Notes under the pieces: generated by a model
Databases searched by the model: none
Seen by the model: only the letters and a program-made list of their open reading frames with translations
What the model was told of the DNA's origin: nothing
DNA from: an uncultured Spartobacteria bacterium
GTDB taxonomy: Bacteria; Verrucomicrobiota; Verrucomicrobiia; Chthoniobacterales; UBA6821
Reading direction: 5' to 3'
Length of the DNA: 43,563 bases
Assembly: GCA_903847935.1 (NCBI GenBank)
Contig: CAINEX010000023.1
Location: 1-43,563, forward strand
Part shown: positions 3,486 through 41,755 of the stretch, in pieces
Position numbering within the stretch: position 1 is the stretch's first letter
Layout: each line of letters starts with the position of its first letter
Program-made: the position numbers and the translations under genes

Positions 3486-5810
3486 TCAGAAATTATCGAT
3501 TTTTGGAGCTCCAAAGAGCTGGAAGCGCTTCTTCCTGGGCGAAGGAGTTGGTGAGGGTTTGAGATTTTCCACCAGGGAGGAGGCTTTGTCACCGAGATCG
3601 GATGATCCTCCTTCCACGGAACTCGCCTTCATAATCGACTCATTGGAATCGACAACTATGGGCTGGATCATGACAACCAACTCGCTTCTGGTTCTATTGT
3701 TTGCGTTATGACCGCCAAGCAGTCCTCCGACCAAGGGTATTTTGCTGAGGTATGGTATGCCCTCATCGGAAGTTGTTTTGTTATCCGTGATCAACCCCCC
3801 CAGAACAATGGTGGATCCACTGGGAACCCGGACCGTCGTTGTCAGTTCCTGAGTATTGATGACAGGAACCTCATTCCCCCCAACGTTGTTGGTCTGGCCA
3901 AGGGTATCGTTCTTCTGGGCGATTACCAAGTTGACCTCCTTGTCGGAGTTAATCAGGGGGATGACTTCCAACTTCAGAACGACCGGTTGATAGACGACCG
4001 TCGTGTTGATGGAGGTCAGGGGATTGGTTCCCGTGCCGCCAACCTGTTGGGAGGAGCTGTTGCCGGGAACAGGCACGTTTTGTCCCGAGAAGATCGTCGC
4101 CTTCTTGTTGTTACTTGTGTAAATGCAGGGTCTGGAGAGGATCCGGAATTTTCCGGTCGTTTCAAGAAAGTGGGCGTAGGTCAGAACATTTTTGGCAACG
4201 TACCCGAAGACATTGAGTCCATTGATTCCCTGAATGAGCCCTGCGGCATTCGTGGCCCCGCCAATCCCGGCCGTAATAAGGCTATTCAAGTTAGGGGTAG
4301 TTGCGGCGACATTGAGATTGTTTGTTCCCGTAGTCCCTATTTTTGCAAACCAGTTAGCCCCGTAGTCGACCCCGTTATCGAGTTCGAGGTTGCCGATGAT
4401 GGCGGCCAGATAGACCTGTTTGGGCCGTTGGTCGAGGAGATCAATGATTTGCTTGGCCTTCGCCTTACTCTCGGGTGGGCCATAGACAATGATGCTATTG
4501 GCGCTGGCGTCCGCAATGATGCTGGTGGAGCCGATCGTCACCGACTGAGGAGCACTCTGCTTTGCCTCCTCGGTGAGTCTATCGGGTGTGTTGGCAACAC
4601 CTCCGGAGGTAGTTGAGGTCGAGGAGTTTTGAGTTTGGCTCTGACTCTGAGGTGTTGGCTGAGACTGAGATTTTGCCGAGCTGCCCGAATTGGAGCCAGC
4701 CTCCTCATCCTTGCCCTTGAGCATGTCCTCCAGCACGGGAAAGAGATCGGTAACCGAGAGATAATTAAGAGGGCGGACAAGCGGTTGGTCAACATCCATG
4801 GGCTGATCAAGCTTCGCGATGAGTTCCCGGAGATACTTGTAATTCTCGGCCTTCACGATCACCAGGATCCTGTTGGTGCGCTTATCAGCGATGAACTGGG
4901 CCTTGCCAGAAAGCAGGTGAGCATCTCCGCCTCCGCTTGAGACGACAGCCCCCTGATTTGCTTGCGGCTGGCCGGCAGGACGAGGTGCTGACGACGTTCC
5001 TCCCTCCTTGCCGAACATCTGATTGAGGGTTTCAACGACTTTGTCGGCACTCGCTCTTTGGAGTTGAATGAATTCCGTGATGATCTGGCTCGGTTCGTGA
5101 TCCACGACCTCAAGCAGGCTGAGCGCCTTGCGGATGACCGGAGTCTTGTCGGTGATGACAATGGCCCCTGTATTGGGAACGCCCACGAGTGAGCCATAGG
5201 CATTGAACTGAACGACTCCCTGAAGGATCTGCACCGCCTCGTCTGGAGCCAGAAAGCGCAGTGGCTTGTAAAAGCTCACCAGCTTATCTCCATCCTGAGG
5301 GAGCTGTGATTCCTCCAGATAGAGCGGCAGTCCTTCAGATCGCGGTGGTCGGCTTGGACCAAGGATCTTGACCGTCTTGCCGTCGACGGGGACGAGTGTG
5401 TAGCCGTTGAGGAGCAGGGAGCTTTCAATGAGGGAAATGGCCTCCGGCTGAGGGATGGGATCGTTGACCATGATGGAGAGCTCAGGGCCGGCAAGATTGG
5501 AATCCCTGATAATCCGTTTGCCGGTAAGCTTCTCATAAACAGTGAGGACTTCAGCTACCGAGGTATGAGGAAACTGGATCGAGATGGGATCGCCGGAAGT
5601 AGCTGTCGGCGTGGTGAGGGTGGCGGCGGGGGTAGCGGAAGCGGGAGCCGCAGTGGACGGCATTAGTGGCTGGTTACGACTTGCCGGAGCCTGGGATGGG
5701 GGGGGGGGAAGCTGAGCTAGCAGGGAGACAGATGTCATCAGGAGGGCTAGGGAGATTGTGGCCGACCCTAAAGATCGAGGTCGAAGCATTCTGATGGTTG
5801 AATCATTCAT
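3486..5810 (-). CDS. gspD: Type II secretion system secretin GspD
   Basis: The 774-residue product should form the outer-membrane gate of the T2SS. After a signal peptide (about 1-32) and a Pro/Ala/Thr-rich linker come N0 (about 76-150), N1 (about 176-238) and N2/N3 repeats. These include the secretin repeat ADKRTNRILVIV and an inserted Gln/Ser/Thr-rich linker at about 370-405. The C-terminal secretin domain follows, with VPSGSTIVLGGL and GIPYLSKIPLVGGLLGG. It is the last gene of the gsp operon, 18 bp after the GspC-position gene. The start at 5810 follows the usual layout, and a second ATG lies seven codons in. An 11-C tract encoding four prolines (residues 35-38) sits just after the signal peptide. 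Slippage there would frameshift the whole secretin. Confidence 0.95.
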   Translation of the reverse strand: MNDSTIRMLRPRSLGSATISLALLMTSVSLLAQLPPPPSQAPASRNQPLMPSTAAPASATPAATLTTPTATSGDPISIQFPHTSVAEVLTVYEKLTGKRIIRDSNLAGPELSIMVNDPIPQPEAISLIESSLLLNGYTLVPVDGKTVKILGPSRPPRSEGLPLYLEESQLPQDGDKLVSFYKPLRFLAPDEAVQILQGVVQFNAYGSLVGVPNTGAIVITDKTPVIRKALSLLEVVDHEPSQIITEFIQLQRASADKVVETLNQMFGKEGGTSSAPRPAGQPQANQGAVVSSGGGDAHLLSGKAQFIADKRTNRILVIVKAENYKYLRELIAKLDQPMDVDQPLVRPLNYLSVTDLFPVLEDMLKGKDEEAGSNSGSSAKSQSQPTPQSQSQTQNSSTSTTSGGVANTPDRLTEEAKQSAPQSVTIGSTSIIADASANSIIVYGPPESKAKAKQIIDLLDQRPKQVYLAAIIGNLELDNGVDYGANWFAKIGTTGTNNLNVAATTPNLNSLITAGIGGATNAAGLIQGINGLNVFGYVAKNVLTYAHFLETTGKFRILSRPCIYTSNNKKATIFSGQNVPVPGNSSSQQVGGTGTNPLTSINTTVVYQPVVLKLEVIPLINSDKEVNLVIAQKNDTLGQTNNVGGNEVPVINTQELTTTVRVPSGSTIVLGGLITDNKTTSDEGIPYLSKIPLVGGLLGGHNANNRTRSELVVMIQPIVVDSNESIMKASSVEGGSSDLGDKASSLVENLKPSPTPSPRKKRFQLFGAPKIDNF
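5698..5708. repeat. 11-base homopolymer (G11 on +, C11 in gspD coding strand)
   Basis: Eleven consecutive G on the plus strand encode part of Pro35-Pro38 of GspD, directly after the signal peptide. It is the longest mononucleotide run I noticed in the window and lies early in a 774-codon gene, where slippage of one or two bases would truncate the product. Confidence 0.9.
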
Positions 5811-5828: not shown

Positions 5829-6473
5829 CTATTTGGGTGCTGCGTTCTGTTGGGGAGCAATCACGGGACGGCGGATGATGCGGCGTGTCGGTGGTATGGT
5901 GGGCTGCTGGCCTGGTTGACCCTGTGCCGTAATGGGTTGTTTCGGCAAGGATGGAAGAGGGGGAAGTTGAACAGGGCCTCTGCCCGGCGTCTGGGGAGCG
6001 CCGGCGACAGGGGATCCGGGTGCGGGTTGTGGTGCAGCCTCAAGGTAGGAAATCGTTCCTGTTTCGGTGCCGACCCTGATCGTGGCCTTGGTGGGTTGCG
6101 TTGTTCCTTCGCGTTGAATGGAGACCAACATCATGTTCTTTGCATTCGGGGTGCTGGTCAGAAGCTCTCGACTCTGATCTGTGCGGTCAAAGACAAAAAT
6201 CTGCTCCTTTCCCCCGATCGTGATCATCCCCGTGATGGCATAGCGCTCGCTGAGGGGGGAACTTTCCTCAGCCGTTGGAAGCGCAAACGGGGATTTCGAA
6301 ATCAGGGACTGGAATCGGGAGATCTCTCGGGGCCTCTCCCAAGCGGCAGGATTATCCGCAGCAGAGGCCTCGGGTTGATGGGTGAGTAGGAGCAGGGCAA
6401 TGCCGAGCATCCCCATCGGGAAGGATGGTCTCGTACGAGAGAGGAGATCTGGAATTTTCAGGGAGCTCGTCAT
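5829..6473 (-). CDS. Exported T2SS-associated protein in the GspC position
   Basis: The 214-residue product has a hydrophobic N-terminal segment (about residues 19-31), ending in a possible signal-peptidase site (EASA-AD) or acting as an anchor. A short globular region follows (about 50-145), then a Pro/Gln-rich tail with RRIIRRP near the end. The region ITGMITIGGKEQIFVFDR resembles in outline the small beta homology region of GspC, which contacts the N0 domain of GspD. In classical operons gspC lies directly before gspD, as this gene does. That is positional inference; sequence similarity is weak and I see no PDZ domain or coiled coil. It overlaps the GspM-like gene by 4 bp (ATGA), so it belongs to the same operon. 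Confidence 0.55.
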   Translation of the reverse strand: MTSSLKIPDLLSRTRPSFPMGMLGIALLLLTHQPEASAADNPAAWERPREISRFQSLISKSPFALPTAEESSPLSERYAITGMITIGGKEQIFVFDRTDQSRELLTSTPNAKNMMLVSIQREGTTQPTKATIRVGTETGTISYLEAAPQPAPGSPVAGAPQTPGRGPVQLPPLPSLPKQPITAQGQPGQQPTIPPTRRIIRRPVIAPQQNAAPK

Positions 6474-7030
6474 GGCGCGGTGGAATGAGCGGAACCGGAC
6501 GATCCTCCCTCTGATCTAAAAAACTGTTTCAGCTCCAGCTCAACGATCACATTCGGGGGTTGGGCATCGCTCTTTATGACTAGCTTCTCGATGGAGCGCC
6601 ATGCGGTCGGGGTCTGGAGGGCAAAAAGCATCCTGACAACCCCTTCAAAGGGACCTGCAAATTTGGCCTGCAGAGAGACGGTCTTGCCCTGAGGAGTCTC
6701 CTCGGGCGGGGTAAGGTTCTCTTCCGTCACCTTGAGTCCGGCTTTTTCGGCCTCGTTGCGCTCCGTTTTTAGCAATTCGGCGCTGGCATCATCTGTGGAC
6801 ATCTCCTGCATGGGATGAGAGTTGATCCATTTCTCCGCAGGTTGGAGGGCCTGTTCCGTAACTAGCCAGGCTTGTTGGGAAGCAAGTTGATTTTTTGCGC
6901 TCTGAATGGAACGCTGAAGGTCAGCTCTCGCTTGAAAAAAGGCATGCAGTCCGAGCATGTTCAGGGCGAAAAAAACCAACCCGGACAGGATTAGCAAAAG
7001 TTTTTTCTCACTCGGGGCCAGTTGGCGCAT
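6470..7030 (-). CDS. GspM/PilO-like T2SS inner-membrane assembly protein
   Basis: The 186-residue product has a cytoplasmic N-terminus (MRQLAPSEKKLLL) and one membrane helix at about 10-31. A helical, probably coiled-coil stretch spans about 32-60, and the C-terminal periplasmic domain looks ferredoxin-like (about 95-175). This is the architecture of GspM and PilO. The AxSEKxLLL pre-membrane motif is common in GspM. It overlaps the GspL-like gene by 23 nt and the following gene by 4 nt. GspM pairs with GspL in the inner-membrane platform, which this order supports. Sequence conservation in the family is low, so the name rests on topology and position. Confidence 0.7.
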   Translation of the reverse strand: MRQLAPSEKKLLLILSGLVFFALNMLGLHAFFQARADLQRSIQSAKNQLASQQAWLVTEQALQPAEKWINSHPMQEMSTDDASAELLKTERNEAEKAGLKVTEENLTPPEETPQGKTVSLQAKFAGPFEGVVRMLFALQTPTAWRSIEKLVIKSDAQPPNVIVELELKQFFRSEGGSSGSAHSTAP

Positions 7031-8369
7031 TGTGTCGGGTTCCTTCCATGTCGAATCGAACGCTGTTCTTCCCGGCCAACTGAGGTTGGCCCGCGTTCCA
7101 TTCGTATTCCTGAAGAAGGGGGTTGGCCTTCAGTTGTTCGATAAAGCGGTAGGCCTGACTCACGTCGGTAGCCTCTCCGGAGATTTGGAGGCGTCCCTGT
7201 TCGAGAGAGAAAAGCGTCAACCTGACCTTCCCCTCCTCCGTGGGTGTGGCGACCGCAGAGAGAAGATCAAGTGCATAAGTAGCGGGATCGACTGATCGCC
7301 TGAGAGTCTGCCACTGCTCCGATTCCAATTTGGCTTTTTTAGCCAAAGGATCCAGAAGAGCCGTTTCCGAGCGGATCTTTTTCAAGGCATGATGCCGAAT
7401 CATCAGGTCCCCACTCCCCCAGATCAGGAGAATAAGGTAAAGAAGAACAACCCCCTTCACCAAGGAGAGGAGCCTCGCATTTTTTTGGAACTGCAGGCGG
7501 AGGGCAACAGCTTCAAGCGGCGGTAAGTCCATCGCCTCCTGGGGAAGATCAGGCGTTGGATCTGAGCCCGTCCCCGGAAGTTGGCTTTTCTGAACATTAG
7601 CATTTGGAAATGCCTGGTGCAGTTCCTTGGAGCACCTCTCCAGCAGCGTACTCGGAACGCTTTTCATGGTGATGACGGCCGGCGGGTGCTCGATTATTTG
7701 TTCGGCGGTCAACCTCAAGGCCACCCGCTTGGCAAGCGCTCCCAAACTTCCCTCCCTGACTCCGCAGAACCAGACCGGTTTCCCATTCCGGAAAAAGGCG
7801 AGATGAAGGGTTCCCCACTCTCTCCAGAGCACCAGATCAGCTGAGGGATCGGCACCCAGGGTGCGGATCGGTAGTTCAAAACGATCGGCCTTTCTCCAGT
7901 CCTCGGGCAATCCTACTCCGTTGAATGGTTCCTCAACCGCCACGGCAAGCACCAACCGGCGATCCTCCCGTTCACAGACCGGTATGACGAGGAGGGAATC
8001 CTCCATCCCTTTGCGGAGTAGGTGCCTTCCGGAGAGTTCCAGGAGGACCAACTCCCTGACATTCCCCCCGGTTGCGATCCAAAGCGGCCAGGCAAAGAGG
8101 AACGTCGAGGGAATGGCAATGACCCGTTCCGAGAGGGGAGGGACCCGATCCTGAGTGAGAAGGGGAGAGAATGTACCGTCTGGTGATCTCAACCATCGCT
8201 CCCAAGTCAGAGGCTCTGAGCCAGGTCGTTCCACAACAAGGCAGCCTTTGCCCTTCTTGGGGATATCACGGGAACTGCCGCCGATGTCAGGGGGCTGATT
8301 ACCCCCAGATAAGATGTCCGGTTCTTCTTCCCCGGAGGCATGGTTCGCTTGTTCCTTAAGGAGGCTCAT
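7008..8369 (-). CDS. GspL-like (PilM-PilN-type) T2SS assembly-platform protein
   Basis: The 453-residue product has a long soluble N-terminal region (about 1-305) without a signal peptide. One membrane helix follows (about 308-328, rich in V/L/I), then a helical stretch and a periplasmic ferredoxin-like domain (about 365-435, ending QAYRFIEQLKANPLLQEYEW). That is the layout of GspL, whose cytoplasmic actin-like domain recruits the ATPase GspE and whose periplasmic part pairs with GspM. The C-terminal part reads like a PilN/fimbrial assembly domain. The cytoplasmic half shows no motif I can recognise beyond its place in the chain. It overlaps gspK by 4 bp and the GspM-like gene by 23 bp. Confidence 0.75.
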   Translation of the reverse strand: MSLLKEQANHASGEEEPDILSGGNQPPDIGGSSRDIPKKGKGCLVVERPGSEPLTWERWLRSPDGTFSPLLTQDRVPPLSERVIAIPSTFLFAWPLWIATGGNVRELVLLELSGRHLLRKGMEDSLLVIPVCEREDRRLVLAVAVEEPFNGVGLPEDWRKADRFELPIRTLGADPSADLVLWREWGTLHLAFFRNGKPVWFCGVREGSLGALAKRVALRLTAEQIIEHPPAVITMKSVPSTLLERCSKELHQAFPNANVQKSQLPGTGSDPTPDLPQEAMDLPPLEAVALRLQFQKNARLLSLVKGVVLLYLILLIWGSGDLMIRHHALKKIRSETALLDPLAKKAKLESEQWQTLRRSVDPATYALDLLSAVATPTEEGKVRLTLFSLEQGRLQISGEATDVSQAYRFIEQLKANPLLQEYEWNAGQPQLAGKNSVRFDMEGTRHNAPTGPE

Positions 8370-9274
8370 TGCTCACTCCACCCTAGCAGAGTTCCTTCGC
8401 TCGTCACGATAGTGATGCGGTGTTTGACGCCGTTACAGTAGCCCGTGCTTTCGATCCGGCGGATACTTCCGGTTATATCGCAGGTATCAGAGATGATTGC
8501 TTTTTGGGCATTGTTTGCTGCCAAATATATCCTCTCAACTTGTTCTATGTTACTTGGTTTAAGATCATCTTCCGTGCCTTCGATACCATCTTTGCCATTG
8601 CGCTGCGTGATCCAAGCATCTGCTTGTGCGGGCGTCAGTCCTAAGAGATCAGTAAGAATATCTTTAGGAGCATGCAGGATATTAATTTTTGGAAGATTAT
8701 TGAGAGTGCTGAAATAGCTCTTCCAAGTAGGTTTGGCCTGCATAACCGGCCCAAAGCCGATAGCAAGCGACATCTCCTCCGGGGAGACGAAGGGGGCTCC
8801 TGGAGGAAGCCCGGATTTGCCAGCGGCCTCATACTCTGGTTGCTTGGCTCCATGGGGGGAGCGAAAAGGGTTGGGACTCTGCCAATCATAGAGTCCGTCG
8901 GCAGCGGCGGCACACTGGTTCATGTCGAGGCCCCAAGCGGTGAAAAGTTTCTGGAAGAGGTCTCGGCGATCCGGAGTCATCCGGAGCCATGTGTTGGGAT
9001 TGATCAGTCCCGACTCATCCTTGATGACGACGCTATAGCCTTCGGCCCCACCCTCCGTAGAGTGCTGAAGAATGGGATCTCCTGGTTGCACGGCTTGCCC
9101 CACAGCAATGCCCGAAAGGGCCTGTTGGCGAGCCTGAAAAATTTTTCCCGCGCGGGTCTCTTCAGAGATCCATCCATCCAAGACTCCGACCAAGAGAACA
9201 ACGATCCCGGCAAGGAGTGCGATCGTCCAGAGCACCATCGGGAGCGCCATGCCTGATTCCTTTTCCTTCATCAT
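8366..9274 (-). CDS. gspK: T2SS minor pseudopilin GspK
   Basis: The 302-residue product starts with a short charged leader and the segment SGMALPMVLWTIALLAGIV, a pilin-type helix lacking the Glu at position 5 of the mature protein. That lack is characteristic of GspK. The large periplasmic part contains GLINPNTW, NINILHAP-like and LTPAQADAWITQRNGKDGIEG segments typical of the GspK alpha domain and its helix-hairpin-helix subdomain. GspK caps the pseudopilus together with GspI and GspJ. Two adjacent ATGs exist at 9274 and 9271. The gene lies 47 bp after gspJ, the widest gap in the H-D block, and overlaps gspL by 4 bp. Confidence 0.9.
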   Translation of the reverse strand: MMKEKESGMALPMVLWTIALLAGIVVLLVGVLDGWISEETRAGKIFQARQQALSGIAVGQAVQPGDPILQHSTEGGAEGYSVVIKDESGLINPNTWLRMTPDRRDLFQKLFTAWGLDMNQCAAAADGLYDWQSPNPFRSPHGAKQPEYEAAGKSGLPPGAPFVSPEEMSLAIGFGPVMQAKPTWKSYFSTLNNLPKINILHAPKDILTDLLGLTPAQADAWITQRNGKDGIEGTEDDLKPSNIEQVERIYLAANNAQKAIISDTCDITGSIRRIESTGYCNGVKHRITIVTSEGTLLGWSEQ

Positions 9275-9321
9275 CCTGGGGGTGGGTTAGGGTTTGCTGG
9301 CTGGGTTGAGGGTGTTGGTGT

Positions 9322-9951
9322 TTACGGGGCCGTGACAGGCGGCACTTGGAAGATCGACTCAATCGGATCGGGAAGGTCGTTGAGTTCAAATTGAAGTTTT
9401 ACTAGAGAAGGCCTGCTTCCCTCGGGACATTCCTCAGTCCAGTTTCCATTGGCATAGAAATAGAAACTCCATCGAGGTTTGATCACTCCGGGAAGCAGTG
9501 GGATGCCCGGAGCCTCGAGTGCATGCGTGATGTCGAGAGGTTGTGCATTCGGAGGAATACGTAGCAGGGTGATGGTGCGGGTCCCATCAGACTGCGGGCG
9601 TGCTGCGAGGACCAATTTCCCTCCCCCCAGGCTGGGAAGGCCAAAGAGATTTCTCGCTTTTTCAAGGATGATCCGTTGCTCGGCCTGTCCTCCTGCTCCC
9701 TTTCCTATTTCGTAGCTCACAGATCCCTCGGCGGGGAGATTGAGAAAGGCATCACGGGTTACCGTGAGGAAGGCATCCACGCGTCGGAGAACAAGCTGCT
9801 GATCCATGGCTATTCTGGAGGCGGTGATCGAAGATCCGACGATTGCATAAACCGAGGCTGCCAGAAGTGCCAGGATCCCCATCGAGACAACCACTTCAAT
9901 CAGGGTGAATGCCTGAGTCTCCCTTCTTGATCTGGCAGAGTTGAAGATCAT
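9322..9951 (-). CDS. gspJ: T2SS minor pseudopilin GspJ
   Basis: The 209-residue product has a prepilin leader and cleavage site QA/FTLIEVVVS with Glu5, followed by the pilin helix (MGILALLAASVYAIVG). The C-terminal half includes RWSFYFYANGNWTEECPE and LPDPIESIFQVPP. These parallel the GspJ pattern of calculated scores followed by a hydrophobic strand. GspJ joins GspI and GspK in the tip complex that initiates pseudopilus assembly. Its ATG overlaps the gspI stop (ATGA), indicating translational coupling and tight stoichiometry. Confidence 0.88.
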   Translation of the reverse strand: MIFNSARSRRETQAFTLIEVVVSMGILALLAASVYAIVGSSITASRIAMDQQLVLRRVDAFLTVTRDAFLNLPAEGSVSYEIGKGAGGQAEQRIILEKARNLFGLPSLGGGKLVLAARPQSDGTRTITLLRIPPNAQPLDITHALEAPGIPLLPGVIKPRWSFYFYANGNWTEECPEGSRPSLVKLQFELNDLPDPIESIFQVPPVTAP

Positions 9952-10385
9952 GGCTTTTGATACATCAAGATTTCGGCCCGATCGGTCTGGTCGGCGGCTT
10001 TGGTGATAATGGTGAGCTTTTTAAGCCCGGGGATCTCGGCCCCCTTGGCGTCTTTGGCAAGGAAAGGAGTGAGTGACTCCTCGACCCTTACGCCATGATT
10101 CTCCCGCGCCTCAATCACGCGGGGTGTGCCTTCGGGGGGGGGATCTGCCTGACAGTAGGCAAGGCGCGATTCCAGGAGTTCACGGGATGCGGCTCGTTGG
10201 CGTGCCTGAATGATGACCTGAAGTCCAGTATCGATGGCGATCACAAGACCTGTTACGGCGATCATGAAGACGCCGAGGGCAATCAGCACTTCAAAGAGAG
10301 TGAAGGCACCGATCCGACTGCCCTGCTTGCCCGAGGTGTGATCGAGGCGCGATCCGAAAGAGGAGGGCTCATGCGGCTTCATCAT
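9948..10385 (-). CDS. gspI: T2SS minor pseudopilin GspI
   Basis: The product is about 145 residues with the prepilin site GA/FTLFEVLIALGVF and Glu5. A short periplasmic domain follows with LLESRLAYCQADPPPEG and a beta-rich end (KKLTIITKAADQ), fitting GspI. I chose the ATG at 10385 because AGGG lies about 8-10 bases upstream and the gene then follows gspH after 7 bp. An ATG at 10403 in the same frame would add six residues and overlap gspH. A 9-C tract lies mid-gene. The stop overlaps the gspJ ATG. Confidence 0.88.
   Translation of the reverse strand: MMKPHEPSSFGSRLDHTSGKQGSRIGAFTLFEVLIALGVFMIAVTGLVIAIDTGLQVIIQARQRAASRELLESRLAYCQADPPPEGTPRVIEARENHGVRVEESLTPFLAKDAKGAEIPGLKKLTIITKAADQTDRAEILMYQKP
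10134..10142. repeat. 9-base homopolymer (G9 on +, C9 in gspI)
   Basis: Nine consecutive G on the plus strand encode three prolines in GspI (context ADPPPEG). It is a second possible slippage site in the same operon as the gspD tract. Confidence 0.85.
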
Positions 10386-10392
10386 CTTTACC

Positions 10393-10881
10393 CTAGTGAT
10401 CATGGAGCACCTGTCCCGTCAGCGCATCGAAGGAGAGCGTGATCGTCTTTTCGCCGTTGCTGAGACGCAGCTCCAAGGGTTGGCAAATTCCCTCCGGGCT
10501 GAATGTCCAAGTCTCTCCACGCTGCGGAGGATGGAAAGCGGAGTCGTTGATTCCCTTGAGTTGCAGGCTCCAACCGCCGGGCAGGGGAAGTCCTGCGATC
10601 CCGTTGGACGAGAGTTGCAACTCCTTCGCGACTCCTGACTCCATCGACTCTTTCCTGATCTCCTGCACCCGGGTAACCATGGCGTCTGATGTTCGATCCG
10701 CTTCTGAACTTCCCTGAGCATCATAGAGATAGGGGAGTGAGGCAGCGATCAGGATCGCCACCAAGGCCAGAGCGATCAGGATTTCCAGCAAGGTGAAGGC
10801 CTCCATTCCCCTTGGCTGGGCATCAGGATTTCCAGGAGTTCCCTTCCGCGTTACCGAATAGAAGACATCATGGGAGTCCAC
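10393..10881 (-). CDS. gspH: T2SS minor pseudopilin GspH
   Basis: The 162-residue product has the prepilin site MEA/FTLLEILIALALVAILIAASLPYL with Glu5. A helix follows, then a beta domain with LPGGWSLQLKG and TWTFSPEGICQPLELRLSNG, the usual GspH/FimT-like arrangement. GspH links the tip complex to the GspG shaft. The frame begins at a GTG (10881), giving a 25-residue leader. An internal ATG at 10806 would leave only a three-residue leader and has poor ribosome-binding spacing. The gene lies 18 bp after gspG and 7 bp before gspI. Confidence 0.85.
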   Translation of the reverse strand: MDSHDVFYSVTRKGTPGNPDAQPRGMEAFTLLEILIALALVAILIAASLPYLYDAQGSSEADRTSDAMVTRVQEIRKESMESGVAKELQLSSNGIAGLPLPGGWSLQLKGINDSAFHPPQRGETWTFSPEGICQPLELRLSNGEKTITLSFDALTGQVLHDH

Positions 10882-10899
10882 GATAGGCGGTGCCTCGAC

Positions 10900-11340
10900 T
10901 TATTTGCCGATATTACCGTCCCCCTCGACCCCTTTTGGTCCCAGTGAGTAGAGGTCATATCCGTCCGCCTTGAACTTTCCAGGATTGTGGTAGATGTACT
11001 CATTACCCCACGGATCCAACGGAACTGATTCCATCAGTTTTTTCCAATGCTGGGGTTTTGGGTCACTGGATGGCATTTGCACAAGGGCTTTCAATCCCTG
11101 TTCTGTCGATGGTTTGCGGTAATTAAGCATCTCATAGGTGCGCAACTGCATCGAGATGGCCTGGATGTCGCTCGTGACCCGCTGTTCCTTGGCCACGTCG
11201 ATGTTGCCTGCCAGCATGTAGATCGCGGAACCAACAAGCACCGCAATAATGCCAAGCACCAGCATGATTTCGAAGAGGGTATAGCCCGACTCTTGGCGCA
11301 GGAGAGAGCGGCGATTAAGGGAGTTGGTAAGGAGTGGCAT
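10900..11340 (-). CDS. gspG: T2SS major pseudopilin GspG
   Basis: The 146-residue product carries the prepilin site ESG/YTLFEIMLVLGIIAVL with Glu5. The canonical GspG body follows: QLRTYEMLNYRKPSTEQGLKALV, then DPWGNEYIYHNPG and DGYDLYSLGPKGVEGDGNIG. The DPWG..Y and SxGxDG-type region binds the structural calcium ion in GspG. Length and C-terminus match the family. The residue after cleavage is Tyr rather than the usual Phe, a tolerated change. It is the first pseudopilin gene of the operon. Confidence 0.95.
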   Translation of the reverse strand: MPLLTNSLNRRSLLRQESGYTLFEIMLVLGIIAVLVGSAIYMLAGNIDVAKEQRVTSDIQAISMQLRTYEMLNYRKPSTEQGLKALVQMPSSDPKPQHWKKLMESVPLDPWGNEYIYHNPGKFKADGYDLYSLGPKGVEGDGNIGK

Positions 11341-27200: not shown

Positions 27201-27229
27201 TTGACCGACCTAAAACATATCATCATATT
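27201..27229 (+). promoter_or_regulatory. Candidate sigma70-type promoter for the secreted repeat protein
   Basis: TTGACC (27201-27206), a 17-bp spacer and CATATT (27224-27229) fit the -35/-10 pattern. Transcription would start at about 27235-27238, essentially at the ATG at 27238, implying a leaderless or nearly leaderless mRNA. Confidence 0.4.
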
Positions 27230-27237
27230 TGAATACG

Positions 27238-28437
27238 ATGATCGCAAATTCCAAGTCTCTCACTCTGCTTATTCTGATAGGAATGGTGGGTTTCTTGTGT
27301 CGGTCCACAGCTTCGGTGATCACCAATTCTCCTGTTGTCTATGATGTAGGTGGGAGGGGAGCCAATGTTTCCTATCTGGTTTTTGATGAATCGAGCCTGA
27401 GTGCGAATCCTATTATTTACGCTTGGCACTACAGTGGGGCGACCAATCCGGCGACTGGGACCAACTGGTGCGGGACTGATCTGCTCAATGCCGTGATGTC
27501 TGCCACCAAAGGATCGGCCATGGCCCTCACCTACACAACTGGTGCAGATGGTCTCACGACCAGTTTTTCGATAGGGAGCGCCACTTCTGCCGTCGTGAAC
27601 CCACTTGCCTCGCCCGTCTGGACCTATTGGATCAAGGGGGGGAGCGAGTACGAACCGTATGGAGATAACGTTGCCTTCACCTTCAATGTCCCGACGTTCA
27701 ATTGGATTGTTTCACCAAACACCTCGGACACGCGTTGGCTCACCAATGGATCCTACGACGCCTGGACCATCAGCCCTTTTTCATTCACTGGAGCATTCAG
27801 TGACACCCATTATTATCTCGATACGACGGGAAGTAATCAGCCCGTGACTTTTGGAACATATTCCGGAGCGGCCCCTCTCTCCGCAGTACCCCCGCCGGTC
27901 GTCCCTCTGGCCCAAACAATCACCCCGTTTGCCACGATTGCTAATCATTCCTTCAGCTCAGCACCTTTCAGCATCGCGGCACCAGTATCCAGCTCCGGCC
28001 TTCCTGTAACCATCGTGGCGTCTCCTCCCGGGATCGTCAGCATTAGCAACAGCATGATCACAATGCTGGGCATCGGTACTGTAACCTTGACCGCATCTCA
28101 AGCTGGCAACGCAAACTTCTCTCCCGTCTCACCTGTCACCACGAGTTTTGTGATCAGGAGAGGCTTCCAGACGATCAGTCCGTTTGCCCCCATAGCCAGT
28201 AGGGTCATGAGCAACAGCCCCTTTACCATTTCCCTACCAGTCTCCACTTCGGGTCTTCCGGTGACCATCACTGCAAGTCCAGCGAACCGCGTGAGCATTG
28301 CTGGCAATACGATCACGCTGCTCGGCACGGGACTTGTCACCTTGACTGCCTCCCAAGGTGGCACTCCGAATTTTTATCCAGCCTCACAAGTTAGCACTCG
28401 CTTTCTGATCGCCCCGATCAGAGGAGTTGGCAGATGA
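27238..28437 (+). CDS. Secreted protein with two 81-residue tandem repeats, unknown function
   Basis: I do not recognise this 399-residue protein. A signal peptide (MIANSKSLTLLILIGMVGF then LCRSTAS) leads into a 200-residue N-terminal region rich in Trp, Tyr, Asn and Ser (for example VYDVGGRGANVSYLVFDES). This looks like a secreted beta domain. It contains one cysteine (in TNWCGTDLL). The C-terminal 170 residues are two copies of an 81-residue unit starting QTI(T/S)PFA and ending in F(V/L)I, resembling bacterial Ig-like or MBG-type surface repeats. No cell-wall anchor or PEP-CTERM tail is visible. A pilin-like gene follows 18 bp downstream on the same strand, suggesting joint expression. Confidence 0.75.
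   Translation: MIANSKSLTLLILIGMVGFLCRSTASVITNSPVVYDVGGRGANVSYLVFDESSLSANPIIYAWHYSGATNPATGTNWCGTDLLNAVMSATKGSAMALTYTTGADGLTTSFSIGSATSAVVNPLASPVWTYWIKGGSEYEPYGDNVAFTFNVPTFNWIVSPNTSDTRWLTNGSYDAWTISPFSFTGAFSDTHYYLDTTGSNQPVTFGTYSGAAPLSAVPPPVVPLAQTITPFATIANHSFSSAPFSIAAPVSSSGLPVTIVASPPGIVSISNSMITMLGIGTVTLTASQAGNANFSPVSPVTTSFVIRRGFQTISPFAPIASRVMSNSPFTISLPVSTSGLPVTITASPANRVSIAGNTITLLGTGLVTLTASQGGTPNFYPASQVSTRFLIAPIRGVGR
27913..28410 (+). repeat. Two tandem 243-bp (81-residue) coding repeats
   Basis: Copy one covers 27913-28155 and copy two 28168-28410. Both encode QTI(T/S)PFA, a serine-rich strand, SGLPVTI, then the core (L/V)TLTASQ and NF(S/Y)P, and end in F(V/L)I. They are similar in protein but clearly diverged in DNA, so the duplication is old. 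Confidence 0.85.
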
Positions 28438-28455: not shown

Positions 28456-29214
28456 ATGAGTGTTTGTCTTTCCAGAGAAGGGTCGCGGCAGGGCGCACGG
28501 ATGCAGGCCTTCACCATGATCGAGGTTTTGGTGTCACTCTTCATGGTCACTCTTCTCCTCATGATTGCCGTACCTGCAGCTCGCAGTGTGATGGCCTCGG
28601 CCACGGATGCCACAAGCGCTCATGTCATCGCCCAGCTCAATGCCGCCGCACAATCCTATCTCATGGAAAACAACATGACTTATTGGCCTTATCGGAGTGT
28701 GACGGATGGAGGGGTGCAGTGGTGGTTTGGATTCGAGTCCAGCGATAGCCTGGACGCCGCGGAAGGTGGACGTTGGCTTGATCTCAACAGGGGGCCGCTC
28801 GGACCCTACATCGCGGCTTCCGGTGGAATGATCAGGGACCCCTCCTTCTGTCGCCAAGGGGATGTCTTCAAACCCAAGTATGGCAACACCCACTTTGCCT
28901 ATGGATACAACCTGCTCATGCAGGGGAAGGGGAGCCTTGCTCTTAAGAACCCAGGGAGGGTTCCTGTCTTCGCGACCTGTGCTCAGGTGAATACCTTTCA
29001 ATCCCCGGCCTCCGGATCTCACCCTATGGTGGAGGAGTTTTACTACTTCGATACCTATGAAAAGACCGTACATTTTCGGATCGGAGGGAACGCCATGGTC
29101 GGCTTTGCGGATGGATCTGCAGGATATCTCAAGATGATGCCCGGAACGCTTGACCAGCGCATGCCTAATGCCAACATCGGACGGATCGATCCCTCACTTC
29201 TCGTCCCGAATTAA
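28456..29214 (+). CDS. Type II/IV pilin-like protein with prepilin-type N-terminus
   Basis: The 252-residue product has a prepilin peptidase site MQA/FTMIEVLVSLFMVTLLLMIAV with Glu5. The body contains QLNAAAQSYLMENNMTYWPY and a C-terminal HFRIGGNAMVGFADGSAGYL. That end resembles the H-x9-DG motif of the large pilin-like families in Planctomycetes and Verrucomicrobia (DUF1559-type). Such proteins are thought to be exported by, or built into, type II/IV filament systems. GAGG lies just before the ATG at 28456, and a second ATG at 28501 gives a three-residue leader. It follows the secreted repeat protein by 18 bp and may share its transcript. Confidence 0.85.
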   Translation: MSVCLSREGSRQGARMQAFTMIEVLVSLFMVTLLLMIAVPAARSVMASATDATSAHVIAQLNAAAQSYLMENNMTYWPYRSVTDGGVQWWFGFESSDSLDAAEGGRWLDLNRGPLGPYIAASGGMIRDPSFCRQGDVFKPKYGNTHFAYGYNLLMQGKGSLALKNPGRVPVFATCAQVNTFQSPASGSHPMVEEFYYFDTYEKTVHFRIGGNAMVGFADGSAGYLKMMPGTLDQRMPNANIGRIDPSLLVPN

Positions 29215-36942: not shown

Positions 36943-37602
36943 ATGACCACGCGACAGCCTTGGAATCTTTCTTATTCTAGGGAAATGAAGGCATTCACCC
37001 TGGTTGAGTTACTGGTGGTGATGGGAGTCATCAGTCTGCTGGCCGCCGCCGCTGTCACCGGGTTCAATGCGATCGGTCGTGCCCGAGGGGTCACGGAGGC
37101 GGCCTATCAGATTGCCTCGGCCGTCGAGTTATGCAGGAGCGAAGCCGTGTCGCGGCAGAGCTATGTCTGGCTTTCCTTCCAACCGCAGACCAACTCTGGA
37201 AGTGCCGATCTTCGACTTGGAATGGTCTATTCGTTGGATGGGTCCTCCACAAACATTAGCTCCACGAATCTCATGCCTTTGGGGAAATCGTTATTGATCC
37301 AAAGCGTCGCTTTGGCTCCGGTGAATACGTCAATCGCGACAAACTTTTCGGGTGTTGATCTGAGCACGAATCTTGCAGGACTAACGTTTACCATAGGAAC
37401 GAATACATTCAACGGAGCGAGCATGACCTTCATGCCCCTTGGGGAGGTTGCCGCCAAACCTTCTCCAACCAATACGGATGGATTTGATCCAATCCTGGGA
37501 TTTGGCCTGCAGCCGACACGTGGCACAACTCTTCTTACCAATAATCTGACCGAACTCTTGATCGATGGCAGTGTCGGGATCCCCACCATCATCAGGCCAT
37601 GA
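36943..37602 (+). CDS. Verru_Chthon cassette protein D (GspH/FimT-like pseudopilin)
   Basis: The 219-residue product has a prepilin site MKA/FTLVELLVVMGVISLLAAAAVTGFNAIG with Glu5. A GspH/FimT-like helix follows with QIASAVELCRSEAVSRQSYVWLSF. The body is a beta-rich domain with many Ser, Thr and Asn residues. It matches the Verru_Chthon cassette protein D family. It opens a four-gene operon in which every junction is a 4-bp ATGA overlap. Start choice is open: GTG 36922, ATG 36943 and ATG 36985 are all in frame, and the last gives a three-residue leader with AGGGA just upstream. About 195 bp without a gene precede it and probably hold its promoter. Confidence 0.85.
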   Translation: MTTRQPWNLSYSREMKAFTLVELLVVMGVISLLAAAAVTGFNAIGRARGVTEAAYQIASAVELCRSEAVSRQSYVWLSFQPQTNSGSADLRLGMVYSLDGSSTNISSTNLMPLGKSLLIQSVALAPVNTSIATNFSGVDLSTNLAGLTFTIGTNTFNGASMTFMPLGEVAAKPSPTNTDGFDPILGFGLQPTRGTTLLTNNLTELLIDGSVGIPTIIRP

Positions 37603-38114
37603 AGTATCCAATCCGAACTCGTTGCTCCGGTTTCTCACTGATCGAGGTGGTGATCGCCATAGGGATCGTCTCCTTTTCGATTCTTGCAGTTGTTGGGCTT
37701 CTCCCGACGGGACTCAAGACGGTCAAGAATGCCAATGAGCAAGCCGGTGCAGCCAATGTGTTGAATGCTATTGCGGAGACTCTTCGGCAGGCTTCCAGTA
37801 GCGATGGTGTAAATTTCAGCAATAGCTTTGCGGGGCAGAGCGTGAGCTACACGATTGGAGGAGGGAGCATGAACTGCTTTTGGACCAATCTCACGCTGGA
37901 GGGGGTCACCAATTCCCAATTCTCCAGAATTGAGGCGCAGTTGATCGGCACATCACCAGCCACTTTGCTTGCCCCCGGGCAGGCGACGATCAGTGTCGCC
38001 TGGTCTGCGAATCCGAATCTAAGTTGGAATTCCTCGTCCAACAACTGGTCGCATGCCGATGGATCAATTACGACGGGCATCCAGTTTCTCCCCCGATACT
38101 TCACGAACCAATGA
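37599..38114 (+). CDS. Verru_Chthon cassette protein B (GspI/PilV-like pseudopilin)
   Basis: The 171-residue product has the prepilin site SG/FSLIEVVIAIGIVSFSILAVVGLLPTGLKTV with Glu5. A helix with NEQAGAANVLNAIAETLR and a small beta domain containing one cysteine (in NCFWTN) follow. The short GspI/PilV-type helix with the LLPxGL segment is characteristic of Verru_Chthon cassette protein B. It overlaps gene D by 4 bp and gene C by 4 bp (ATGA at both ends). By order and shape it corresponds to GspI in the classical H-I-J-K series; that is my inference. Confidence 0.87.
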   Translation: MKYPIRTRCSGFSLIEVVIAIGIVSFSILAVVGLLPTGLKTVKNANEQAGAANVLNAIAETLRQASSSDGVNFSNSFAGQSVSYTIGGGSMNCFWTNLTLEGVTNSQFSRIEAQLIGTSPATLLAPGQATISVAWSANPNLSWNSSSNNWSHADGSITTGIQFLPRYFTNQ

Positions 38115-38965
38115 AGCCTGATCAATTCAGTCCTGCGGGCGTTCACCCCATGGAGCGAAAGGATGCCTTTACCCTGGTTGAGCTCCTGACGGCCACGGCC
38201 ATCCTTTCTCTCCTTCTCGTGCTGATGTTTCAGATCGTGAGTGAGATCCTCCAGTCTACAAAGGTGCAGAATCAGCAGATGGAGTCGGTTGCCGCCGCCA
38301 GACGGGCTCTGGATGTGATGGCCTGCGACCTTCAGAATGCCGTGGTGGGCGAGGATATCTCAATCCTTGTGCCATCGGGCCCCGGCACCAATCTCTTTTC
38401 TCTGTTGGCCTATCGGAAGGGGCCGAATGGGGGAGATGCCACAAACCGATTCCTCGCAGTCTCTTATTCAACGAATGGAAGTGATCAACTCTTTCGATCC
38501 TACGGGAGTGTCGACTATTCACAGACTAATTTTCTCACGGCGTCCTATGCCACGAACACCCCGCCCTACCCCCTTGCCTCTCATATCTTGGGAGTGGAGG
38601 TTCTGGCCGTGACGGAGTCAACGAATTACCCGTTGACGAATGCTCCAGAGGCTAACTGGGCGACGAATGCCTATAATAATACAAATCCAAACACACCGGA
38701 TGGCTTCAATGCGCTCATCACAACGAAACCGAACTTTGCATCTGGGCTAACGAACCGCACCTACGCCCTGCAGGTCTGGATCGCCGCCGTGGATGAGCAG
38801 AATTACGCTCTTCTTACCAACACAGGAAAATTGGATGTTGTGAAAGCCGCCCTCGCCAATGCTAGCGATCCCTCCGGATGGCGAGATGCAGTCGATGCTG
38901 CCTCCATTCCGACTCCTTCAAAATCCGGGATCAGGATTCTTGATAAAACAATCACCCTTCCATGA
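38111..38965 (+). CDS. Verru_Chthon cassette protein C (GspJ-like pseudopilin)
   Basis: The 284-residue product has the prepilin site KDA/FTLVELLTATAILSLLLVLMFQIVSEIL with Glu5. The stretch VAAARRALDVMACDLQNAV then parallels the ARRALDxMxxDLxxA helix of GspJ. The remainder is a long beta-rich domain with many Thr, Asn and Tyr residues and the final segment SIPTPSKSGIRILDKTI. It fits Verru_Chthon cassette protein C. The ATG at 38111 overlaps the gene B stop. The frame is open further upstream, but that part lies inside gene B and is discarded. It overlaps gene A by 4 bp. Confidence 0.87.
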   Translation: MKPDQFSPAGVHPMERKDAFTLVELLTATAILSLLLVLMFQIVSEILQSTKVQNQQMESVAAARRALDVMACDLQNAVVGEDISILVPSGPGTNLFSLLAYRKGPNGGDATNRFLAVSYSTNGSDQLFRSYGSVDYSQTNFLTASYATNTPPYPLASHILGVEVLAVTESTNYPLTNAPEANWATNAYNNTNPNTPDGFNALITTKPNFASGLTNRTYALQVWIAAVDEQNYALLTNTGKLDVVKAALANASDPSGWRDAVDAASIPTPSKSGIRILDKTITLP

Positions 38966-41580
38966 AGAGCCGCCCAAACGATTCACGTCCAATGACTTTA
39001 CGGCGCCAAGATGGAATGGCTTTGGTCCTCACCCTGGCGCTAATCGTTTTGGTGACCGTGGCGGCCGTGGCCTTCCTCACAAGGGCCACTGGGAATCGTA
39101 CGATTGAAGCCTCTCGGTCGAGTCAAGTCCTAGCGGCACAATTGGCCGAAACCGGCGGGGATTATGTCGAGGGGGTTTTTCTACAGGAGATCGCCTCCAA
39201 CTCGGTTCCAATCATCGTCTCTAGTGGCGTGACAAATTATCTTCCTAGCAGTCCCAAGTGGATGATTCCGCAGCAGATTCTTGCCGCCAGCATCAACTCT
39301 AGTGACTACACGAATGCGTTTGCCAATCTGATCCGACAGAGTGTTCCCACCGCGGATACAAATGCCTCGACTGGGGATAGTACGGTGGGGGCATCGCTAA
39401 ATGGTCGGATGATTTCGTCAGATCGCTGGAATGCCCCACTCCTCTTAACCAACGGCTTTGCAACCACCAACCAACTCCCCAACTGGATTTATGTGAATAG
39501 GGATGGGAGCATGACTTCGGCGCCCTCGACCAATGTTATCGGCCGATTTGCCTATAATGCCTACGACATCGGGGGATTATTAGATGCCAATGTGGCAGGG
39601 TATCCGTCATCAGTCACTGCGGGAGATACTAATATTGCGATTCTCAAGGGGACTCTTGCCGGAGCAGACCTGACTCAACTGCCTGGAGTGCAAGCAATTG
39701 ATGTTCAGACCTTTGTGGGATGGAGAAACTCCAATAGCGCGGGGTCTCCCGCCAGCTATGTTATGGATGTCACGAATGCAGCAACGAATGGATTCCTCTT
39801 ACCAGCACCCGGTGACCAACGCTTCACCTCGCGACAGGATCTTATCCGATATGTCCTTTTTCAGTCCAATTCACTGACCAATGCCCTTCCCTACCTGACT
39901 CATTTCACAAGAGAATTGGCGAGACCTTCGCTATACACAAACGGCCTTAATCTGATGATGAGTCGATTTGATATTTCTCAGGTGACGCATCCGACAGGCA
40001 ATACGAATTTTGGTCTTACACAGATTGATACTCATAGTTATGCCTATGATTCAACGCTAGTTCTCTCGAACTCATCCACGAATCCCTCGTTTTTCCAAGT
40101 TCTCTACTCGGCTATTAACCTGACTAATTCGGTCGAAAGCAACGGTCCTACTGGCGCCCTGACTGCTACACCAGCAGCTTGGCCCTCCCTCATGGACTTG
40201 AAGGCCGTAGCGATCGGGGCAAACATCATTGATCAGTTTGATACGAATAATCTCCCGCGTCTTTTTACTTATAATGGAAACACAGTGTCAGGTAAGAAGA
40301 CCCTTCCTTATATCATGCAGATATTTCTTGTGTACAATATCGACACATCAAAGGCGCCAACCAATACAATTAATTTTTCCATTATCCCTCAACTGTGGTG
40401 TGCCACAAATCCACTCGCAACGCCAAACCTTACCGCCTCGGTTTCAGGGGGGAACATCAGTGCTCTTAATTTTGCTTCACAACCATTAAATTCGGGCCAA
40501 GCCAGTGGAGGGGTTTCAGGGATGGGCGCGGGAGTGGCCCCCGTCTTTAATAATTTTTCTACTACTTCGGGTGGTGATGCTGTGAGCAGTGGGTTCTTCC
40601 GTACCTCCTTGCAATCAACAAATCCGATACCACCCACGCTCAGCGTGACAGTTACCGGTTTGTCATTTTCGCTTAGCAGTTCAGGTACAGACTCAAACAC
40701 GTACAGTGCAGTGGGTGCAGTGAATTCAACCAATCCACTGGTTGTCGCAACGATTTCTCCCATCGTTACGAACATTGTGATCGATCCTTCAATTACAACT
40801 GGCAACCTGGCCGGAATTTCTCTGATCACACAGGACCCTCGGACATTGAGGGAGGCGGGATCAACAACCAACGTGGCGGGTATTGCTGCACTTACAACAT
40901 CGCTCCCAAGAAGCATGAGTTACCCGTATCCTAATTCCATTACGGACACCAACTATACGACGCCTTCTGATAGGATTAATAGCGTGGGAGAGTTGGGATA
41001 TGTCTTCCGAGAAATCCCTTGGAGAACCATTGACTTCGTTTCCGGATCTCCCACCGTTAATCCAAGCTCACCGAGTTCAGATTATGCTCTGCTGGATGTC
41101 TTCTCAGCATTCCCAACCCGGCCCAGTGGAGTGCGGGCAGGTGTCATCAATCTGAACACGAGTCAGAGTTGTGTGCTGGCCTCCATGCTATCGGGAGTTT
41201 CTCTTGATGAAGCCATTTCCGGGAGTGTTACCGCCCAACAGGCTGCCGAGATTGCACAACAGATGGTTTCTATGACTTCCTCTAATCCTTGGACCAACCG
41301 CTCTCAAATAGTCGATCTGGCCTTCACCAACACTTCGCTAGGAAGTGAAAAACAAAATAAGGAATCTATTGTAAGGGCTTTGGCAGAAGTCGGTCAGGTT
41401 CGCACCTGGAACCTCCTTATCGATGTCGTGGCGCAAGCGGGGCATTTCTCATCGGGTGCAGGTTCCTCACCCACTGGAAGTCAATTCATCGTCGGCGGAG
41501 AGAATAGGATCTGGGTCAGTACAGCGATCGACCGCTTCACCGGTCAGGTGATCGACCGTCAGGTTGAACAGGTGAAGTAG
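38962..41580 (+). CDS. Verru_Chthon cassette protein A (large GspK/PilX-like protein)
   Basis: The 872-residue product begins with a basic leader and QDGMALVLTLALIVLVTVAAVAFLT. This is a pilin-type helix without Glu5, as in GspK and PilX. It is followed by RTIEASRSSQVLAAQLAETGG. Near residue 729 the motif GVINLNTSQSCVLASML, then AAEIAQQMV and NRSQIVDLAF, mirrors the GspK pattern of INxNTAxxxVLxAL and the helix-hairpin-helix repeat. The central 600 residues are Ser/Thr/Asn-rich, beta-type and poorly conserved. GspK is usually about 300-330 residues, so this is a much enlarged version. It matches Verru_Chthon cassette protein A. Its coding DNA looks AT-richer than its neighbours between about 39900 and 40800. 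Confidence 0.87.
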   Translation: MKSRPNDSRPMTLRRQDGMALVLTLALIVLVTVAAVAFLTRATGNRTIEASRSSQVLAAQLAETGGDYVEGVFLQEIASNSVPIIVSSGVTNYLPSSPKWMIPQQILAASINSSDYTNAFANLIRQSVPTADTNASTGDSTVGASLNGRMISSDRWNAPLLLTNGFATTNQLPNWIYVNRDGSMTSAPSTNVIGRFAYNAYDIGGLLDANVAGYPSSVTAGDTNIAILKGTLAGADLTQLPGVQAIDVQTFVGWRNSNSAGSPASYVMDVTNAATNGFLLPAPGDQRFTSRQDLIRYVLFQSNSLTNALPYLTHFTRELARPSLYTNGLNLMMSRFDISQVTHPTGNTNFGLTQIDTHSYAYDSTLVLSNSSTNPSFFQVLYSAINLTNSVESNGPTGALTATPAAWPSLMDLKAVAIGANIIDQFDTNNLPRLFTYNGNTVSGKKTLPYIMQIFLVYNIDTSKAPTNTINFSIIPQLWCATNPLATPNLTASVSGGNISALNFASQPLNSGQASGGVSGMGAGVAPVFNNFSTTSGGDAVSSGFFRTSLQSTNPIPPTLSVTVTGLSFSLSSSGTDSNTYSAVGAVNSTNPLVVATISPIVTNIVIDPSITTGNLAGISLITQDPRTLREAGSTTNVAGIAALTTSLPRSMSYPYPNSITDTNYTTPSDRINSVGELGYVFREIPWRTIDFVSGSPTVNPSSPSSDYALLDVFSAFPTRPSGVRAGVINLNTSQSCVLASMLSGVSLDEAISGSVTAQQAAEIAQQMVSMTSSNPWTNRSQIVDLAFTNTSLGSEKQNKESIVRALAEVGQVRTWNLLIDVVAQAGHFSSGAGSSPTGSQFIVGGENRIWVSTAIDRFTGQVIDRQVEQVK

Positions 41581-41702: not shown

Positions 41703-41755
41703 ATAACGCAGCCTTAAGGTATCGGGGGGTATTCTTAAGGCTGCGTTATTTTTTT
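41703..41755. terminator. Strong hairpin terminator between the cassette and convergent prmA
   Basis: ATAACGCAGCCTTAAG (41703-41718) and its exact complement (41734-41749) form a perfect 16-bp stem with a 15-base loop, followed by T41750-41755 on the plus strand. The prmA stop codon (41746-41748 on the minus strand) lies inside the right arm. It should stop rightward cassette transcription. It has no A-run on its left side for leftward prmA, so it may work mainly rightward. Confidence 0.9.

Follow-up and report, generated by a model that had tools for sequence, protein, structure and literature searches.

We analyzed a 43,563-nt stretch of DNA (hereafter, the window) on contig CAINEX010000023.1 of an uncultured Spartobacteria bacterium of the order Chthoniobacterales, whose genome assembly (GCA_903847935.1) comprises 2.18 Mb in 140 contigs. 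The window contains a cassette of four co-directional genes, D, B, C and A, that are predicted to encode a set of minor pilins:

36943..37602, + strand: gene D, 219 amino acids (aa), GspH/FimU-like predicted minor pilin
37599..38114, + strand: gene B, 171 aa, GspI/PilV-like predicted minor pilin
38111..38965, + strand: gene C, 284 aa, GspJ/PilW-like predicted minor pilin
38962..41580, + strand: gene A, 872 aa, predicted giant GspK-like tip subunit without Glu5

All four reading frames are intact, and each adjacent pair of genes (D/B, B/C and C/A) has an ATGA in common, as described in the original prediction, which was made from the letters of the window. The motifs it had pointed out are also present (ARRALDVM within C, INLNTSQS and AAEIAQQMV within A), and it had correctly noted the absence of GspG, secretin and ATPase genes: the neighborhood of the cassette within the window holds no gene for a secretin, ATPase, platform protein, GspG or major pilin. 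The cassette is not a complete locus of a type II secretion system (T2SS) or a type IV pilus, in which secretin, ATPase, platform and major pilin would occur together.

All four proteins possess a predicted class III signal and an N-terminal pilin helix. D, B and C pass the Pfam N_methyl cut-off (26.4 bits for D). In addition, D matches Pfam GspH (PF12019) over residues 53-164 with 19.1 bits, below the cut-off of 21.0, B matches the PilV model TIGR02523 with 36.2 bits, and C matches the gspJ model with 27.6 bits. The N-terminus of A is a GMALVLTL... helix that lacks Glu5 and has K as its best N-terminal profile. Relatives were then used to build a profile for each cassette protein, and T2SS loci of the same bacterial order to build profiles for H, I, J and K; hhalign compared the two groups in a 4x4 matrix. 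With the helix included, the best profile is H for D (P 4.1e-9, the H profile being built from three sequences), I for B (P 1.7e-8), J for C (P 1.1e-9) and K for A (P 2.3e-4). For B, the J profile is close behind (P 2.4e-8), and the difference that would make B an I rather than a J is marginal. The cassette appears to follow the order H-I-J-K, with each member nearest its counterpart, and the matrix supports the mapping of D-B-C-A onto H-I-J-K that had been proposed; in the case of A, this support extends beyond the membrane helix.

After removal of the helix, the only significant match of A is to K (P 2.1e-5, score 50.3; P ≥0.32 for H, I and J). Of 150 column-shuffled K profiles, none was as good as the real K, the highest score among them being 25.5, and a reversed K profile gave P 0.75. 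The aligned stretch, NRPF-SV-EL ... AG-INLNT-VL, lies in the C-terminal quarter of A. Two segments of A resemble GspK:

39550..39729, + strand: YDIGGLLDANVAGYP...LPGVQAIDVQTFVGW segment, like the first conserved part of the GspK alpha-domain (weak second and third hhalign alignments)
40960..41190, + strand: INSVGELGYVF...AGVINLNTSQSCVLASML, second GspK-like part (hhalign P 1.9e-5 without the helix)

The first segment is conserved in a 33-row alignment of A relatives, and the GspK signature I-DE-G--N-N is weakly matched by hhalign near residue 200 of A. With the NCBIfam GspK model, A scores only 15 bits, confined to the helix. A shares with GspK the absence of Glu5 and, as judged from these alignments, the conserved alpha-domain segments; we conclude that it is a predicted GspK-type protein in which a very long insert splits the two conserved GspK segments. 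GspK itself, the tip cap over the I-J complex, contains an inserted domain (PMC7248040), and A looks like an extreme version of this design. Predicted structures, obtained from two-row alignments (the window and locus L096), had a mean pLDDT (predicted local distance difference test) of 28 for A and 47 for C and were too poor to use.

The size of A also bears on an alternative explanation, by which the four proteins would carry prepilin-like signals without entering a filament, A being an inner-membrane-anchored surface or periplasmic protein. A far exceeds the GspK models in length (NF037980 has 307 positions), and sequence comparison gives it no relative of solved structure, a PDB search with the A profile having returned nothing meaningful. 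However, the presence of all four H-I-J-K roles in sequence, the division of the GspK segments in A and the gene overlaps would be hard to explain without co-assembly, and we regard this explanation as very improbable.

The D-B-C-A order recurs across the bacterial order, and a second, divergent D-B-C-A set is present in the same genome (contig C73, L018:5470-10055); on both counts, the arrangement is more than chance. Among the 16 N-methyl matches in the genome, the two cassettes are the sole H-I-J-K sets beside that of the T2SS. A GspK-profile match on contig C52 was rejected as a third K, being the helix-hairpin-helix of Tex. The C73 cassette encodes a giant K of its own, 907 aa long and with an INVNTA motif, and K-like frames of similar size are found in many genus-mates. 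We surveyed 58 genomes (this genome and 57 relatives) by counting distinct open frames, so that the counts are lower bounds. Genome G037 possesses at least eight window-type or other giant-K-like proteins vs three secretins, and G023, G030 and G057 possess about four each vs three to four secretins. No platform protein, GspK or cassette was detected in the reduced, 0.9 Mb genomes G028 and G038. Horizontal transfer of cassettes, considered for L072 with L070/L073, is not claimed, because the cassette branch lengths are similar to those of PilB.

A fifth gene, E, directly follows A on the same strand in 16 related loci:

L096:8534-9313, L072:4320-5120, L075:9559-10251, L080:3316-4113 and 12 more loci: E genes

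The N-terminus of the E product (about 226-295 aa) is signal-like, and its conserved pattern is thin; the protein has no match in Pfam, NCBIfam or PDB, including the PilY1 family. The position of E after A is that of pilY1 after pilX, and in one locus (L071 of G023) two E genes stand in tandem. The gene is lacking in the window cassette, in its two nearest relatives (L061 and L062) and in three cassettes of another family. The window set, having no fifth gene, differs in this respect from a type IVa pilus operon, in which PilY1 is encoded with the set. Both E-less groups carry short A proteins (690-872 aa) and are separate on the A tree, a hint that E may dock on a part of A that short A proteins have lost; this stays only a hint, since seven or so long A proteins also come without E. 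The L071 cassette has, directly upstream, a gene whose product is a PEP-CTERM protein containing beta-strand (PATR) repeats (L071:10488-13976). The suggestion that this protein is a cargo of the cassette comes from this single case and is unsupported.

The window also contains a T2SS on the minus strand, spanning positions 3486 to about 11340:

3486..5810, - strand: GspD secretin (Pfam Secretin 145 bits, GspD N0)
6470..11340, - strand: T2SS genes M, L, K, J, I, H and G (Pfam T2SSG, T2SSK_1st, T2SSM_b and N_methyl, together with gene order)

The original prediction referred to a T2SS with a secretin 25 kb away and read the cassette as a swappable tip that gives this system a new cargo. The distance is right for the T2SS as a whole (a gap of 25.6 kb to D), the secretin itself being 31 kb from D. 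The T2SS and the cassette lie on the same contig and follow the same H-I-J-K logic; moreover, H/I/J/K correspond to FimU/PilV/PilW/PilX, and the minor pilins of one system can take the place of those of the other (PMC7248040). However, the window T2SS owns a complete G-H-I-J-K, including its own minor pseudopilin set. We searched 36 related cassette loci for relatives of secretin, GspL, GspG, GspE and GspF: none of them has a secretin, GspL or GspG gene, and no T2SS gene lies near any. The motor genes linked to cassettes are PilB or PilC or encode a third type of ATPase, the platform genes falling in the PilC clade and not in the GspF clade, and no cargo gene accompanies the cassette except the fifth gene of relatives. 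These results do not support the proposed link to the T2SS of the window, and we consider a T2SS tip unlikely.

The remaining machine genes are scattered over the genome. It possesses three extension ATPases (a tandem pair on contig C140 and one on C51), two PilT-like proteins (both on C16), three secretins (one in the window and a tandem pair on C119 within a PilM-N-O-like operon) and two GspF-type proteins (C18 and C132). On the trees, where T2SS identity was judged from contig partners in relatives, the C18 protein groups with T2SS GspF and the C132 protein with PilC; the C51 ATPase groups with T2SS GspE and the C140 pair with PilB. Because the two GspF-type proteins split into T2SS and PilC clades, and the ATPases likewise, the genome is predicted to encode one T2SS and one pilus, with two D-B-C-A sets. 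The tandem arrangement of PilB-type ATPases (L129 on C140) is conserved throughout the order, the ATPase tree showing it in two separate clades, and the two large tandem secretin genes of the pilus operon (L128 on C119) have tandem counterparts in many relatives too.

Motor genes near cassettes are of E and F types only and were found in 6 of the 36 loci (PilC in three, a PilB-type ATPase in one, a third-type ATPase in two). In genus-mates G007, G010 and G015, an F gene converges on A and forms a long branch nested in the PilC clade of the genus; as placed by the tree, it is a diverged second copy of PilC, the platform gene of the pilus:

L086:7430-8704: predicted diverged PilC duplicate beside a cassette (tree)
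L089:3163-4542: predicted diverged PilC duplicate beside a cassette (tree)
L091:150-1418: predicted diverged PilC duplicate beside a cassette (tree)

G033 has a tandem PilB pair ~3.4 kb from its cassette. G029 and G056, which belong to another family, have a third-type ATPase gene divergent from the cassette, and G029 has a matching third platform protein elsewhere in its genome. The partner machine is likely the type IV pilus rather than the T2SS, because the T2SS owns H-I-J-K, the 36 cassettes are all without a nearby T2SS gene, and PilC duplicates stand beside three of them.

The same linked genes (the private PilC of the three genus-mates, the third-type ATPase of G029 and G056 and the third platform protein of G029) could also mean that the cassettes belong to, or evolve into, separate type IV filament machines that share only some pilus parts. 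Yet no private secretin or major pilin was found beside any cassette, and the two platforms and three extension ATPases of this genome are all assigned to the T2SS and the pilus; such machines seem quite improbable to us. The original prediction had assumed a shared machine without a dedicated system: in relatives, elements of a dedicated system do occur (three genomes with a private PilC and two with an ATPase next to the cassette), and in this genome they do not.

Several observations weigh against a pilus-tip assignment. Without the helix, D, B and C have no significant hhalign match to H, I, J or K. Motor-gene linkage, at 6 of 36 loci, amounts to about three independent cases, none of them in this genome, for which reason the pilus is held as likely and not more. 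Pilus-type secretins also occur in relatives in which no cassette was detected, so a cassette is not required for the pilus. Finally, the window cassette has no fifth gene. On balance, we favor with modest confidence the interpretation of D-B-C-A as an operon for an alternative minor-pilin set of the GspH-I-J-K / FimU-PilV-PilW-PilX type, mounted on the type IV pilus machine. In the corresponding model, prepilin peptidase would cleave D, B, C and A, which would form a staggered inner-membrane complex capped by A. This complex would prime a filament of a major pilin encoded elsewhere and end up at the filament tip; what the fiber binds would then depend on the large domain that A exposes there. 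The machine would be the cell's type IV pilus (the PilB pair on C140, PilC on C132, the PilM-N-O-Q-like genes including the two secretins on C119, and PilT on C16) and not the T2SS, and in many relatives the secreted fifth protein probably joins the tip.

Compared with GspH-I-J-K of the T2SS, which gives the best profile match for each cassette member and whose K core signature is found in A, the cassette stands apart from any T2SS operon, has a very long insert in K and lacks G. The closest arrangement among pili is fimU-pilV-pilW-pilX-pilY1 of Pseudomonas, which resembles the cassettes in the H-I-J-K order, in a K-type protein without Glu5 (absent from both PilX and GspK; PMC7541494), in the several sets per machine and in the secreted fifth protein that follows the K gene in many cassette relatives. 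In Myxococcus, three FimU-PilV-PilW-PilX-PilY1 clusters are served by one machine and are read as tips of differing properties (PMC7541494), so the idea of exchangeable tips is already known. The cassettes differ in that A is far larger than the usual K-type protein, E matches no Pfam or NCBIfam model, and no E is present in the window. Cyanobacterial Hps pseudopilins are thought to work with a shared pilus as well, and C weakly matches HpsC (NF038304, 21 bits). However, this match is confined to the helix region (the N-terminal 64 residues), and no polysaccharide genes are found at D-B-C-A.

The original prediction had labeled the genes a Verru_Chthon cassette, a name for which they fall short of the NCBI curated thresholds in all four proteins. 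D scores 29.7 bits with TIGR02596 (cut-off 70) and C scores 30.6 bits with TIGR02599 (cut-off 256.5), both at the N-terminus only; B, with 48.9 bits for TIGR02598, is narrowly under the cut-off of 51.4, and A has no match to TIGR02600 (cut-off 332.3 bits) at E<=1. Genuine TIGR02600 proteins score 787 bits in one genome of the same genus and 764 to 1360 bits elsewhere in the phylum. Both types of cassette combine three N-methyl proteins with a giant fourth, whereas genuine Verru_Chthon sets, where complete, have the order B-C-A-D or A-B-C-D and not D-B-C-A, and many window-type relatives carry the fifth gene. The window-type A family, defined by a 20-row alignment (A1), has full-length members in the order and, outside it but within the class, in two of the genomes sampled, a distribution that is a lower bound, as the phylum scan scored three candidates per genome. 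Outside the helix, window-type A aligns with Verru_Chthon A at both ends (P 1.5e-5 and 2.1e-5). A direct match between the Verru_Chthon A and GspK profiles outside the helix was rejected as not significant (P 0.039). Since window-type A aligns to both and these two do not align significantly with each other, the family of the window is, by profile comparison, a sister family that bridges Verru_Chthon A and GspK. Our literature search found no mention of Verru_Chthon. As far as could be found, the novelty lies in the giant K, the bridge between families, the fifth protein and the number of copies.

A broader picture can be sketched tentatively, although we think it is rather less than probable: Chthoniobacterales may possess a large repertoire of exchangeable tips (D-B-C-A or D-B-C-A-E), in which the K insert would act as adhesin or receptor, E would replace PilY1, and some sets with private PilC or PilB would be becoming separate machines. 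If the pilus-tip interpretation is true, Verru_Chthon cassettes and their relatives, so far named by occurrence only, would gain a functional reading as pilus-tip complexes, and Verru_Chthon A would be tied to GspK via an intermediate family. It would also add E, undescribed in Pfam and NCBIfam, as a conserved secreted partner, and make this bacterial order suitable for studying tip exchange on a shared filament machine at scale.

The cassette is flanked upstream by presumably recO-like DNA and downstream, on the opposite strand, by a gene that we take to be prmA, both read from translations. No sigma-70-like promoter was found near D on the + strand. An inverted repeat follows A:

41703..41755, no strand: inverted repeat with 16-bp arms (41703-41718 / 41734-41749), a 15-base loop and then T6, read from the sequence

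This repeat is likely a terminator that ends the D-B-C-A operon after A and is shared with prmA of the opposite strand. Outside both the T2SS and the cassette, the window holds a lone pseudopilin-like gene with a MVGFADGSAGY segment (28456-29214), which is adjoined by a gene for a repeat-containing secreted protein (27229-28437).

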